Below, piece by piece: positions 38,126 through 60,077 of a DNA stretch of 64,000 nucleotides. The stretch lies in assembly GCF_964065165.1 (NCBI RefSeq), contig NZ_OZ061549.1, forward strand, positions 868,001 to 932,000, read 5' to 3'. The stretch comes from Levilactobacillus yonginensis. GTDB lineage: Bacteria; Bacillota; Bacilli; Lactobacillales; Lactobacillaceae. Below the pieces are notes generated by a model. The model saw only the letters and a program-made list of their open reading frames with translations. It was not told the DNA's origin and did not search any database. Both the position numbers and the translations under genes were made by a program. Positions within the stretch are counted from its first letter, which is position 1. Every line of letters starts with the position of its first letter.

Positions 38126-39514
38126 TCAGCTTCTAGTTCGATCGTTATTCGTCATTGCTAAGGGATCGACCCATTCGTCAAACTGAGTCGCAGTCACTTT
38201 CCCAGACTGGATAGCAGCAGCTCGTAACGTGGACCCCTCTCGTTCGGCCTGCTGAGCAATTTCAGCGCTAGCGTGATACCCAATATGGGGGGACAGCGCT
38301 GTCACCGTCATCAAGGACTGATCAACCAGTTCCGTCATCCGATCCGCATTGACAGTGAGTCCATGAATCAATTTGGTGGTAAAGCTGGCAATTGTTCCAT
38401 TCAACAGGTCCGTCGACTCCAAGAAAGTGGCAATAATTACCGGTTTATAAACGTTCAGTTCAAAGTTTCCTTGGGAAGCCGCCATGGAAATCGTTACATC
38501 GTTGCCCATCACCCGGGTCGCCGCCATGGTCAGTGCTTCTGCTTGAGTGGGATTGACCTTGCCAGGCATGATTGAAGATCCCGGCTCGTTGGCGGGAATG
38601 TTTAATTCATTGTAGCCAGCCCGCGGGCCACTGGCCAAGAACCGAATGTCGTTGGCAATTTTCAATAGGTCTCCGGCTAGCGTTCGAATAGCCCCGTGAA
38701 CGACGGTTAAGCCGGAATGAGCGGCTAATCCAAAAAATTTATTGGTATCCGCAGTAAACGTCTGCTGATAGGCTTGGCTCAGCTCGGCGGCTACTGCGGC
38801 GGCAAATCCGGGAGCCGCATTTAATCCCGTCCCAACAGCCGTCCCACCGATTGGTAATTCCCCCAGCGTCGGTGCTAACGAGGTTAGGTAATCACGATCA
38901 TGTTGCAAAGTGCTGACCCACCCACTGATTTCCTGACCAAAGGTTAACGGCGTGGCATCCTGCAAATGTGTCCGCCCAATCTTGACTACTTGCCAATATT
39001 CCTGTTGCTTCGTCTGTAATTCCGTTATCAACGTATCCAACTGTGTAACTAGTTTAGTAACGGCCACGGTTGACGTCACGGCCATCGCGGTTGGAAAAGT
39101 ATCATTAGAGCTCTGACCGCGATTCACATCATCATTGGGTAAAACCCCACTCGTCGGATCATACGTCATGGTTTGATGGGCAATCACTTCATTGACGTTC
39201 ATATTCGTCTGCGTGCCGGACCCCGTCTGATAGACCCGCAGTGGAAAGTCCTGCTGCAGTTGACTATCAGACAAATTTAACAGGTCCTCCGTGGCCCGAA
39301 TAATCAGTTGGGCCTTGGCCGTTTGAATCTCTCCCAAGTCCCGGTTGGCAATAGCCGCTGCCCGCTTAAGCTGTAACAACGCCCGAATCAGGACCATTGG
39401 CATCAACGGTCCTGTCGTAAAGTTGTGACGACTACGCTCCGTCTGAGGACCCCACAGAGCCTTGGCTGGGACCTTAACTGTTCCCAAAGTATCCGCTTCT
39501 TCACGATAATCCAT
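38126..39514 (-). CDS. fumC: fumarate hydratase, class II
   Basis: Interconverts fumarate and malate; cytoplasmic, iron-independent. The 462-residue product has the family signature GSSIMPGKVNPTQAE, the substrate-binding SSNDTFPTA and GRTHLQDATPLTFGQE segments and full length. The ribosome site region AGAGAGGAAGAGGAAAG directly precedes the ATG and can pair over 14 contiguous bases with the candidate small RNA at 55944-56027. A strong promoter lies 35 bases upstream. The last codons overlap a 7-bp hairpin (AACGATC/GATCGTT). Confidence 0.97.
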   Translation of the reverse strand: MDYREEADTLGTVKVPAKALWGPQTERSRHNFTTGPLMPMVLIRALLQLKRAAAIANRDLGEIQTAKAQLIIRATEDLLNLSDSQLQQDFPLRVYQTGSGTQTNMNVNEVIAHQTMTYDPTSGVLPNDDVNRGQSSNDTFPTAMAVTSTVAVTKLVTQLDTLITELQTKQQEYWQVVKIGRTHLQDATPLTFGQEISGWVSTLQHDRDYLTSLAPTLGELPIGGTAVGTGLNAAPGFAAAVAAELSQAYQQTFTADTNKFFGLAAHSGLTVVHGAIRTLAGDLLKIANDIRFLASGPRAGYNELNIPANEPGSSIMPGKVNPTQAEALTMAATRVMGNDVTISMAASQGNFELNVYKPVIIATFLESTDLLNGTIASFTTKLIHGLTVNADRMTELVDQSLMTVTALSPHIGYHASAEIAQQAEREGSTLRAAAIQSGKVTATQFDEWVDPLAMTNNDRTRS

Positions 39515-39548
39515 CTTTCCTCTTCCTCTCTAGAACCTGATTACGTTC

Positions 39549-55588: not shown

Positions 55589-55897
55589 CTAACCAATATG
55601 ATTTTCGTGCAGAATGGCTTGGACTTCCTCCTGAACTTCTGCCGGCTTATCCCACTCCTGAAAAGTTTTAAAATCCTCATCAGGCATGGTGTAATGCTCA
55701 TTAACATAGTCTTCATAGGCTTGAACGTGAGGCGTGTGGGCAATGTTCAACTGTAGAATCCGAACTTGTTTAATCAATCCCCGTTCTACGGCTAACTCCG
55801 CCCGACCATTTTGAACCATATTGCTGACTTCCATATACTTACTACCATCTAATCGGGTAATTTCCTCAATTAGTGTAAATACTTCGTGACTTTTCAT
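55589..55897 (-). CDS. 102-residue protein of unknown function
   Basis: Soluble, acidic, helical (MKSHEVFTLIEEITRLDG, later AYEDYVNEHYTMPDEDF). No domain recognised. GGAGG is 9 bases before the ATG at 55897; the GTG just before is possible. Its -10 TATAAT (55924-55929) lies directly after the terminator of the candidate small RNA. Between tRNA-Asn and the small RNA, all on the minus strand. Confidence 0.7.
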   Translation of the reverse strand: MKSHEVFTLIEEITRLDGSKYMEVSNMVQNGRAELAVERGLIKQVRILQLNIAHTPHVQAYEDYVNEHYTMPDEDFKTFQEWDKPAEVQEEVQAILHENHIG

Positions 55898-55923
55898 CAC
55901 TACTCACCTCCGCACAATTTTCT

Positions 55924-55929
55924 ATTATA
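55924..55929 (-). promoter_or_regulatory. -10 element of the 102-residue gene
   Basis: TATAAT on the minus strand; the -35 is weak (TTTTGT) and overlaps the T-run of the RNA terminator. Confidence 0.4.
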
Positions 55930-55943
55930 CCGTGATTTTAGAC

Positions 55944-56027
55944 AAAACAAAACCACTACCAGGGAATGGCAGTGGTCGGCATAAGAGAGAAAGAGAATTG
56001 ATTAGAAGGTAATTATTAATACCTTAC
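55944..56027 (-). ncRNA. candidate CcpA-controlled small RNA of about 84 nt
   Basis: A strong promoter (56034-56062) gives a start near 56027. The RNA has a 5' hairpin AAGGTA/TACCTT (56006-56025), a single-stranded segment CAATTCTCTTTCTCTCTTAT (55981-56000), and a terminator hairpin ACCACTGCCA/TGGTAGTGGT (55952-55976) with T-run to about 55944. No ribosome site and no useful frame. The segment is complementary to purine-rich ribosome sites. Layout is like RsaI of staphylococci (CcpA-repressed, pyrimidine-rich middle), but sequence kinship is not claimed. Confidence 0.7.
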
Positions 56028-56033
56028 GTATAT

Positions 56034-56062
56034 AATATACCGACATTTGTAAGCGCTGTCAA
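56034..56062 (-). promoter_or_regulatory. promoter of the small RNA
   Basis: TTGACA (56057-56062), 17 bases, TATATT (56034-56039) on the minus strand, near consensus. Confidence 0.85.
56048..56061 (-). promoter_or_regulatory. cre operator overlapping the small RNA -35
   Basis: TGTAAGCGCTGTCA matches all 14 positions of TGWAANCGNTNWCA. It covers five bases of the -35 and most of the spacer's upstream part, so CcpA should repress in rich sugar. Confidence 0.8.
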
Positions 56063-56186: not shown

Positions 56187-56217
56187 CAAAAAAGGCCGGG
56201 CACACGATCCCGACCTT
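56187..56217 (-). terminator. terminator of tagH
   Basis: AAGGTCGGG and CCCGGCCTT pair (one G-U) around 8 bases, followed by T-run on the minus strand. Between it and the tagH stop are about 140 bases with no gene seen. Confidence 0.8.
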
Positions 56218-56357: not shown

Positions 56358-57443
56358 CTACTTAACGGCTGACGTCTTGTTGGCATCATGTAAAACCGTC
56401 TCTGGATGCACAATGCTGCCTGGGTTCTGCAAAACATCCCCCAGCGAATGACCTGAAACGTTGACCAAACACGTCAAAACGAACAGTACCCCCACAGCTA
56501 ACGTCAGAATACGATTGCCCCAGCTCATCTTTTCACTGATAACGGATCCGTAGAAACTCTTCTTCACCTCGGCAGCAACGTTGCTGTCGTTAGGCTTCGC
56601 CTGTTGCCGTTCTTCGGTAACTTGTTGCTGATAAGCATCAATATCGAAGGTCTTCTGGTTGGCCTTCATTTGACGTTGGAAGTGCTTCTTCTCAGCTTTA
56701 GTCTGACCCTTGAACCACTTCGTAAACTCACGGTAGTGCTTCACAACATCTTTTGTGGCTCCAAGTTCCTTCAACGTTCCATAATGGATCCAGGCAACCC
56801 GGTCACATAAGATTTCAATCTGCTTCAAAGAGTGACTGACAAAGACAATAGTCTTCCCTTCATCCTTAAATTCAGCAATCTTATCCACACATTTTTGGTA
56901 GAAGGTATCGTCCCCTACGGACAAAGCTTCATCAATAATTAAAATGTCCGGATTAACGTGCACAGCAATGGAGAAACCTAGCCGCGACTTCATCCCTGAA
57001 GAATAGCTTTTAACGGGCTGATACAAGAAATCACCAATATCCGCAAACGAAACGATATCATCCATCAGGGCATCGATTTCCGGGTTTGTAAGTCCTTGCA
57101 TCAAGGCCTTCAAACGAATATTTTCCAGTCCTGTTAAATTACCACGAAGTCCAGCACCAATAGCAATGATTGAGGTATCACCCCGAACTTCAACTCCCCC
57201 AGTTGTTTGGGGAATAATCCCAGAAATAATGTTCGAGAGCGTCGACTTACCGGAACCATTAACCCCGATTAAACCTAACGTTTCACCGGACTTCACTTCA
57301 AGTGAGATTCCCATCAGTGACCAGAAATGAGGCACTGTCGAATTCCGTAAGGAGAAAAACGCCCGTAACTTTTCGGCCTGACTCTTATAAAGGTCGTATT
57401 CCTTGGTGACGTTTTGAACTTTGATTTTGTAAGAATTATCCAT
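56358..57443 (-). CDS. tagH: teichoic-acid export ATPase
   Basis: 361 residues: nucleotide-binding domain (about 1-250, Walker A GVNGSGKSTLSN, signature SSGMKSRLG, Walker B DILIIDEALSVGDD) with the long C-terminal extension typical of TagH: a charged helical linker and one membrane helix (about 310-330). It pairs with a TagG permease to export wall teichoic acid. No tagG is adjacent, so the partner must lie elsewhere. AGGAAG is 8 bases before the ATG. Confidence 0.88.
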   Translation of the reverse strand: MDNSYKIKVQNVTKEYDLYKSQAEKLRAFFSLRNSTVPHFWSLMGISLEVKSGETLGLIGVNGSGKSTLSNIISGIIPQTTGGVEVRGDTSIIAIGAGLRGNLTGLENIRLKALMQGLTNPEIDALMDDIVSFADIGDFLYQPVKSYSSGMKSRLGFSIAVHVNPDILIIDEALSVGDDTFYQKCVDKIAEFKDEGKTIVFVSHSLKQIEILCDRVAWIHYGTLKELGATKDVVKHYREFTKWFKGQTKAEKKHFQRQMKANQKTFDIDAYQQQVTEERQQAKPNDSNVAAEVKKSFYGSVISEKMSWGNRILTLAVGVLFVLTCLVNVSGHSLGDVLQNPGSIVHPETVLHDANKTSAVK

Positions 57444-59290: not shown

Positions 59291-60013
59291 TTAATCTAAC
59301 TGACTAGCTGCAGCTTCATCCAAAATTACCGTTACATTCGGATGAGTCTGCAAATAACTGGCTGGAACATCTGGTGTAATTGGGCCTTGAATCATGGCTG
59401 AAACAGCCGCAGCCTTAGCCTCACCATACGCTGCAATCAGGATTTGTTTAGACTTCAGAATCGATCCAATCCCCATTGAGTAGGCATAACGGGGAACGTC
59501 ATTAGCGTTATCAAAGAATCGTGCATTAGCGGCAATAGTTGATTCGGTCAATGCCACTTTATGGGTGGTTGATTCCGGGTCAGTACCAGGTTCGTTGAAA
59601 CCGATGTGGCCGTTTTGACCCAAACCCAAAAGTTGCAAGTCAATTGGGTGAGCAGCAATAATTTGATCATAGTCGTGCGTAGCGGACTCAGCATCCAAGT
59701 TAGACCCGTCTGGAACAAATGATTGTGCGAATGGTTTTTGGTTAAATAAGTGTTGTTGCATGAAATAGTGGTAACTTTGTGGGTGATTAGCATCTAACCC
59801 CACGTACTCGTCCAGGTTAACCGATGTTAATTGACTGAAATCCAAGTCACTAGCACCTAATTCATCGTAAATACTAATTGGCGTACTTCCCGTAGCGAGT
59901 CCTAAAACCTGGGCCCCGTTATCCAAAGCGCGTTTAAAAATCTCAAATCCAACGTACCCGCCGGTCTTCTTATCATTTACAATTTGTAGATCCATGTTCG
60001 TTACTTGTTTCAT
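59291..60013 (-). CDS. nagB: glucosamine-6-phosphate deaminase
   Basis: Converts glucosamine 6-phosphate to fructose 6-phosphate and ammonia, the reverse direction of glmS. The 240-residue protein has LATGSTP (about 39-45), the catalytic region NLDEYVGLD, and [15 protein letters not shown]; shorter than enteric NagB but normal for Bacillota. GGAG is 10 bases before the ATG at 60013. The leader carries TAAGAGAGGGAGA (60023-60035), complementary to the candidate small RNA over 13 bases. Strong promoter upstream. Confidence 0.96.
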
Positions 60014-60048
60014 ATCATTCAGTCTCCCTCTCTTAATGGTATAGTCCG

Positions 60049-60077
60049 ATTATAAGTGCTCTAGACCAATTTTGCAA
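60049..60077 (-). promoter_or_regulatory. promoter of nagB
   Basis: TTGCAA (60072-60077), 17 bases, TATAAT (60049-60054) on the minus strand. Confidence 0.8.

Follow-up and report, generated by a model that had tools for sequence, protein, structure and literature searches.

A 64,000-nucleotide stretch of Levilactobacillus yonginensis DNA, referred to here as the window, contains a short segment between a TagH-like gene and an uncharacterised gene (c0) in which a minus-strand promoter, a CcpA operator (cre) and a terminator lie close together. Does this segment encode a stand-alone small RNA, is the RNA controlled by CcpA, and on what would it act? A preliminary description of the window had answered the first two questions in the affirmative and suggested that the case was new for lactobacilli.

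A predicted small RNA gene under a cre site

The promoter consists of a -35 box TTGACA (56057..56062, minus strand) and a -10 box TATATT (56034..56039, minus strand) with a 17-nt spacer, both read from the sequence and recovered by a promoter scan; the spacing alone places the start of transcription at approximately 56027. With 11 of 12 consensus matches it is the best of six promoters in a 3-kb scan. The cre, TGTAAGCGCTGTCA (56048..56061, plus strand), overlaps the -35 box and agrees at 14 of 14 positions with TGWAANCGNTNWCA, which we take to be the cre consensus and use for all cre scoring. A terminator scan finds an intrinsic terminator hairpin at 55951..55977 (minus strand), whose stem begins 50 nt past the predicted start and whose T-rich tail extends to about 55944. 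The promoter (56062-56034), the fully matching operator over it and the hairpin with T-run at this distance (stem 55977-55951) are all present as first described. Another terminator-like hairpin (56192..56217, minus strand) lies behind the upstream TagH-like gene (56358-57443) and separates it from the RNA. On their own, the scans perform at chance level: six promoters were found where 5.9 were expected from shuffled sequence in the 3-kb scan, and three terminators against 2.5 expected. The argument for an RNA gene therefore has to be carried by conservation.

The predicted RNA of about 84 nt (55944..56027, minus strand) is indicated by its fold, by DNA matches within the genus and by a covariance model. 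The 84-mer folds at -22.3 kcal/mol, compared with -9.3 +/- 2.5 in 200 shuffles (z -5.3), and the fold reproduces the proposed order of a 5' hairpin, an unpaired pyrimidine-rich stretch and the terminator. The hairpin, AAGGTA paired with TACCTT (56006..56025, minus strand), is seen in both the predicted fold and the alignment. The linker behind it, CTAATCAATTCTCTTTCTCTCTTATGCC (55978..56005, minus strand), encloses a 16-nt core, AATTCTCTTTCTCTCT, and is assigned from the core test and the pairing probabilities given below.

Conservation of the RNA and of its operator

A DNA search of the genus returns a match in all 35 genomes. The match in G034 is split in two: an ISL3-family insertion sequence (PF01610; L070, ~1037-2497) sits inside the stretch that would form the 5' hairpin and parts the promoter and cre from the core, a natural disruption. 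Alignment of 30 loci shows the RNA body and the cre nearly invariant and the flanks diverging. In the family, blastn with a cut-off of E<=0.01 finds matches in 202 of 397 genomes. A covariance model of the hairpin and core, built from 42 sequences, finds 202 of 395 Lactobacillaceae genomes at the same threshold and 187, from 15 genera, at E<=1.1e-6. The remaining 15 matches are weak (E 9.6e-5 to 0.009); among five weak family matches inspected, the one from g18 (L261), with hairpin, core and terminator all kept, appears genuine and the other four do not. Outside the family, an order-level sample (148 genomes, at least 19 of them from Lactobacillaceae) gives nothing better than 7.6e-5. A pattern scan of named genomes yields at least 120 stretches. 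Twelve genera are named among the 80 stretches listed, namely Levilactobacillus, Lactiplantibacillus, Limosilactobacillus, Ligilactobacillus, Latilactobacillus, Lentilactobacillus, Secundilactobacillus, Paucilactobacillus, Furfurilactobacillus, Loigolactobacillus, Liquorilactobacillus and Periweissella, the rest being labelled Lactobacillus or Lactobacillaceae; named carriers among them include L. plantarum (L114), L. reuteri (L117), L. salivarius (L084) and L. brevis (L127).

The core is the most rigid part of the RNA. Many loci were found through the core or filtered on it, so that the 21 invariant columns of the alignment are partly a product of selection, and a fair test is limited to loci found by other means, several of which share one genome. 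In such loci the core is exact in 74/74 blastn matches, in 34/34 family- and order-level matches of the covariance model, and in 15 of 16 divergent model matches, where the single miss is a locus cut by a contig end. Every untruncated copy not itself picked by the core thus carries the same 16 nt. Over 152 distinct RNAs the mean unpaired probability of the core is 0.92 (0.8 or more in 134, lowest 0.55). By a lenient count, the 5' hairpin is predicted in 149 of these RNAs. Divergent copies swap it for other paired sequence and keep the core: GTAAGAA/TTCTTAC in Periweissella, AAAGGTAG/CTACCTTT in g5 and GTAAGG/CCTTAC in g18. Under a lenient rule (a hairpin, then at least five T in eight), applied to overlapping species and without a shuffled control, all 191 loci scored have a terminator-like hairpin behind the core, with markedly differing stems. 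RNAalifold counted no covariation in an unrefined alignment in which the terminators are misaligned, and the stems were therefore inspected one by one. A degenerate copy (L259, genome G044, g11) retains the core and terminator and has lost the 5' hairpin and cre. By sequence comparison, the core is fixed while the hairpin, terminator and flanks change.

We examined the operator in core-bearing loci up to L288 with an upstream sequence of 110 nt or more; after removal of N-containing sequences and exact duplicates, 163 distinct promoter regions remained. A cre with at most one mismatch is found in 159 of these regions (138 perfect, 21 with one mismatch); the same threshold is reached by 0.4% of shuffled regions and 0.5% of 946 flank windows. 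Because the regions share ancestry, they do not count as independent cases. The four exceptions comprise L128, whose site has two mismatches, and the copies of G034 (interrupted), g11 (degenerate) and g18. The position of the site varies: relative to the start of TTGAC, the cre starts at +1 nt in 124 regions, at +14 in 29 (Limosilactobacillus, g5 and two Liquorilactobacillus-type loci), upstream at -21/-22 in four (Loigolactobacillus) and elsewhere in two. The two Liquorilactobacillus-type loci, L067 and L098, also retain, by eye, a cre-like sequence at the -35 box, and are possible intermediates of operator relocation. The cre has shifted relative to the promoter and yet has rarely disappeared, which suggests that CcpA control itself is under selection. 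A cre over the -35 or -10 box predicts repression; the upstream position in Loigolactobacillus could mean either sign. The preliminary description had stated that its proposal would fall if relatives lacked a conserved promoter, cre and terminator, and the proposal passes this check: judged from these comparisons, the deeply conserved small RNA gene with a conserved cre is real.

Candidate pairing partners and alternative readings

We consider it probable that the gene specifies a small RNA, about 84 nt long, that acts in trans and belongs to the CcpA regulon, being repressed in glucose and, on relief, pairing with purine-rich ribosome-binding sites; the repression by CcpA, the expression, the pairing with mRNA and the identity of the targets are what we infer. 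With a preferred sugar present, CcpA with HPr-Ser46-P would occupy the cre, which covers the -35 box here and the spacer and -10 box in other lineages, and the gene would be off. Once the sugar is exhausted, the RNA would be made and would end at its own terminator. The unpaired pyrimidine stretch of 16-25 nt between the two hairpins would then pair with the purine-rich ribosome-binding sites of several mRNAs and lower their translation, nagB being the best candidate within the genus.

Candidate targets in the window were sought among 48 hand-picked genes, with a mean predicted duplex of -10.5 (s.d. 4.3). The strongest duplexes are predicted with the ribosome-binding sites of fumC (-26.0, the best; site 39512..39531, minus strand; gene 39514-38126) and nagB (-20.7; site 60011..60034, minus strand; gene 60013-59291), both names being best NCBIfam matches just under the curated cut-offs; the other 46 genes give a pairing z of +0.5. 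The nagB pairing recurs in all seven Levilactobacillus genomes examined, six of which fit the search motif, and is retained in G016, G019 and G033 despite clear alteration of the site. With the window genome left out, its z is -3.4 and one of 500 shuffled cores does as well, for sites that share descent within one genus; automatic clustering of recurrences missed nagB, which was checked by hand. This makes nagB the best candidate target in Levilactobacillus, a lead and not proof. The nagB promoters of the genus (~60030-60070 in the window, minus strand) also carry GGTCTAGAGC / GGACTATACC-like boxes, which resemble the operators of GntR-type NagR regulators.

The fumC duplex is the weaker candidate. 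In a test on 110 sequences, eight of nine from Levilactobacillus pair at -15 or better, one orthologue giving -16.7 or -19.0 depending on the length of the scoring window, and with G000 and G033 left out the z inside the genus is -1.6. Elsewhere the pairing is not conserved: 68 orthologues of the other RNA-bearing genera give z +1.0 against +0.5 for 33 from genera free of the RNA. All 77 sequences from RNA-bearing genera average -9.8 against -9.4 for those 33, with no difference between the two sets (p 0.62). We reject fumC as a general target. The background of such values can be gauged from the ribosome-binding site of c0, for which no role as a target was expected and which reaches z -1.8 over 30 loci within the genus; over 120 distinct loci it gives only z -1.2, and c0 was rejected as a cis target.

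Wider searches add two motif-selected candidates. The pattern for ribosome-binding sites gave 13 rows for the window genome and, across the six others, 77, of which four distinct places fell outside the inspection; a reversed-pattern control is unfair for ribosome-binding sites. Recurrences were found for a zinc-type dehydrogenase (five of the seven genomes), fumC (four), two others (three each) and the rest (one or two). The dehydrogenase gives z -4.1 and the gluconate symporter gntP, identified above its curated cut-off, z -4.3 over the four loci read that have the motif, both sets having been picked by the motif itself. At the gntP start codon lies GCATAAGAAAAGAGAGAAWAAGAAT (L328, L329, L335, L336), which is also reminiscent of the 3' portion of the linker. 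A 12-mer search of the window genome that allowed one mismatch gives five non-self places against two control matches. Near-complete complements of the core are in no excess across 34 genomes of the genus (50 non-self occurrences against 59 for the reversed pattern); of 15 such places inspected, four lie at the gntP start, one before a gene for a CynX-type transporter, two near other ORF starts and eight near none.

These results leave some room for a protein-binding or decoy RNA, in which the pyrimidine core would bind and titrate an RNA-binding protein or a component of the ribosome once CcpA repression lifts. A pairing seed is usually shorter than a fixed core of 16 nt, and this length, the unchanged state of the core in untruncated copies not chosen by it, the failure of the fumC test to yield a family-wide mRNA target and the lack of enrichment of near-complete complements all speak for such a role. 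We nevertheless hold it to be unlikely, as no candidate protein has been identified and the nagB pairing survives sequence change within the genus. The more specific proposal, that this is a family-wide carbon-starvation decoy whose core owes its invariance in some fifteen genera to the capture of a single conserved protein or component of the ribosome, and not to ordinary mRNA pairing, is in our estimation somewhat less likely again.

The trans-acting reading also has to be weighed against the neighbourhood of the gene. Upstream genes vary between genera. The largest cluster of flanking ORFs is the c0-type protein of 102 aa (167 ORFs from 194 loci, some of which overlap), so that most loci adjoin the same gene, an association absent from the preliminary description. 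In the window, c0 (55589..55900, minus strand), assigned from adjacency and a family search, encodes an uncharacterised protein of 102/103 aa, a conserved neighbour outside the RNA; TATAAT at 55924..55929 (minus strand), read from the sequence, is its probable -10 box. The gene is present in nearly every Lactobacillaceae genome (389 of 393) and has no Pfam or NCBIfam match. Its AlphaFold model has a mean pLDDT of 95.5 and matches no solved structure at E <= 0.001, and the modelled fold is perhaps undescribed.

The RNA might accordingly be read as a leader or attenuator that terminates conditionally 5' of c0. In most loci listed (L001, L039 onward), c0 does lie downstream in the same orientation, usually ~40-230 nt past the core. 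Against this, no fixed coupling of the two is found: in some loci c0 is 400-1200 nt distant, inverted or absent from the vicinity. The stem of the terminator is freely variable, with no conserved antiterminator apparent by eye, and pairing with the c0 ribosome-binding site is little above chance. Of 167 distinct loci, 87 have a perfect TATAAT within the 70 nt that follow the terminator region, compared with 7.8% of shuffles. Finally, c0 is retained without the RNA in all 13 loci read from genomes lacking a convincing model match; over 530 nt on both strands of these loci, the best core has three mismatches of 16 and the best cre two, and several of these c0 genes appear by eye to stand straight behind the TagH-like gene. 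The RNA can therefore be lost alone, and we regard the leader as quite improbable. With its own promoter and terminator, a frequent -10 box for c0 and a neighbour from which sequence comparison separates it, the RNA looks like a transcription unit of its own, in agreement with the stand-alone unit first proposed.

A promoter-terminator pair or DNA element kept for some other reason, without a functional RNA, is very improbable given that the RNA body is fixed while the flanks diverge and that the stems change with pairing preserved. Least credible is a small ORF or leader peptide: the linker does contain a single ATG (CTTATGCC; CTTATG), but this is missing from 21 of 152 distinct RNAs, has no ribosome-binding site before it and opens a frame that enters the variable terminator, which at the level of sequence bears out the earlier claim that no coding frame with a ribosome site exists.

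Relation to known RNAs and meaning

Rfam searches at gathering and permissive thresholds give nothing relevant at the locus, and the covariance model of 6S RNA has no match there. The preliminary description likened the layout to that of RsaI of Staphylococcus aureus, described in PMC9266662 as a CcpA-repressed metabolic RNA that blocks Shine-Dalgarno sequences. Our RNA has a cre-overlapped promoter, and pairing with a Shine-Dalgarno region is a prediction made here for nagB in one genus, that for fumC failing outside it; RsaI measures 111 nt in a table of that paper against about 84 nt here. In PMC6586332, ArgX of Lactococcus lactis is a CcpA-repressed RNA with its own promoter and a predicted cre near the -10 box. 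It resembles the present RNA as a small RNA of a lactic acid bacterium with its own promoter and a predicted cre, and differs, by description, in following argR, responding to arginine and acting on arc. The RNA of the window does not lie directly 3' of argR; its neighbours are the TagH-like gene and c0. SR1 of Bacillus subtilis, which the same text states to be CcpA-repressed, is alike in kind, the comparison being one of descriptions with an RNA that has no Rfam match. According to PMC8414754, roughly one lactic acid bacterium in three, with some Lactobacillus groups among them, has a predicted cre at its 6S RNA gene. There too a predicted cre overlaps the -35 box of a non-coding RNA gene; that RNA is ~210 nt in one species, against about 84 nt and no Rfam match here.

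The preliminary statement that no CcpA-controlled small RNA had been described in lactobacilli therefore has to be narrowed by the predicted 6S cases and otherwise appears to hold: in the open-access main texts searched, no other cre-controlled small RNA of lactobacilli was found, and none of these texts contains any of four sequence spellings that cover parts of the core. On the basis of Rfam and of descriptions, the RNA appears to be a new family within a known kind, the CcpA-repressed small RNAs.

To our knowledge, few regulatory RNAs of lactobacilli have been characterised. The carriers include food and gut lactobacilli, in which this RNA seems to be an undescribed metabolic regulator, apparently off when a good sugar is available, and the gene can be tested directly in laboratory strains. 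Its cre sites, relocated but retained, offer a clear example of operator turnover. If the proposed role is true, lactobacilli including L. plantarum, L. reuteri, L. salivarius and L. brevis would share an RNA arm of carbon catabolite control.
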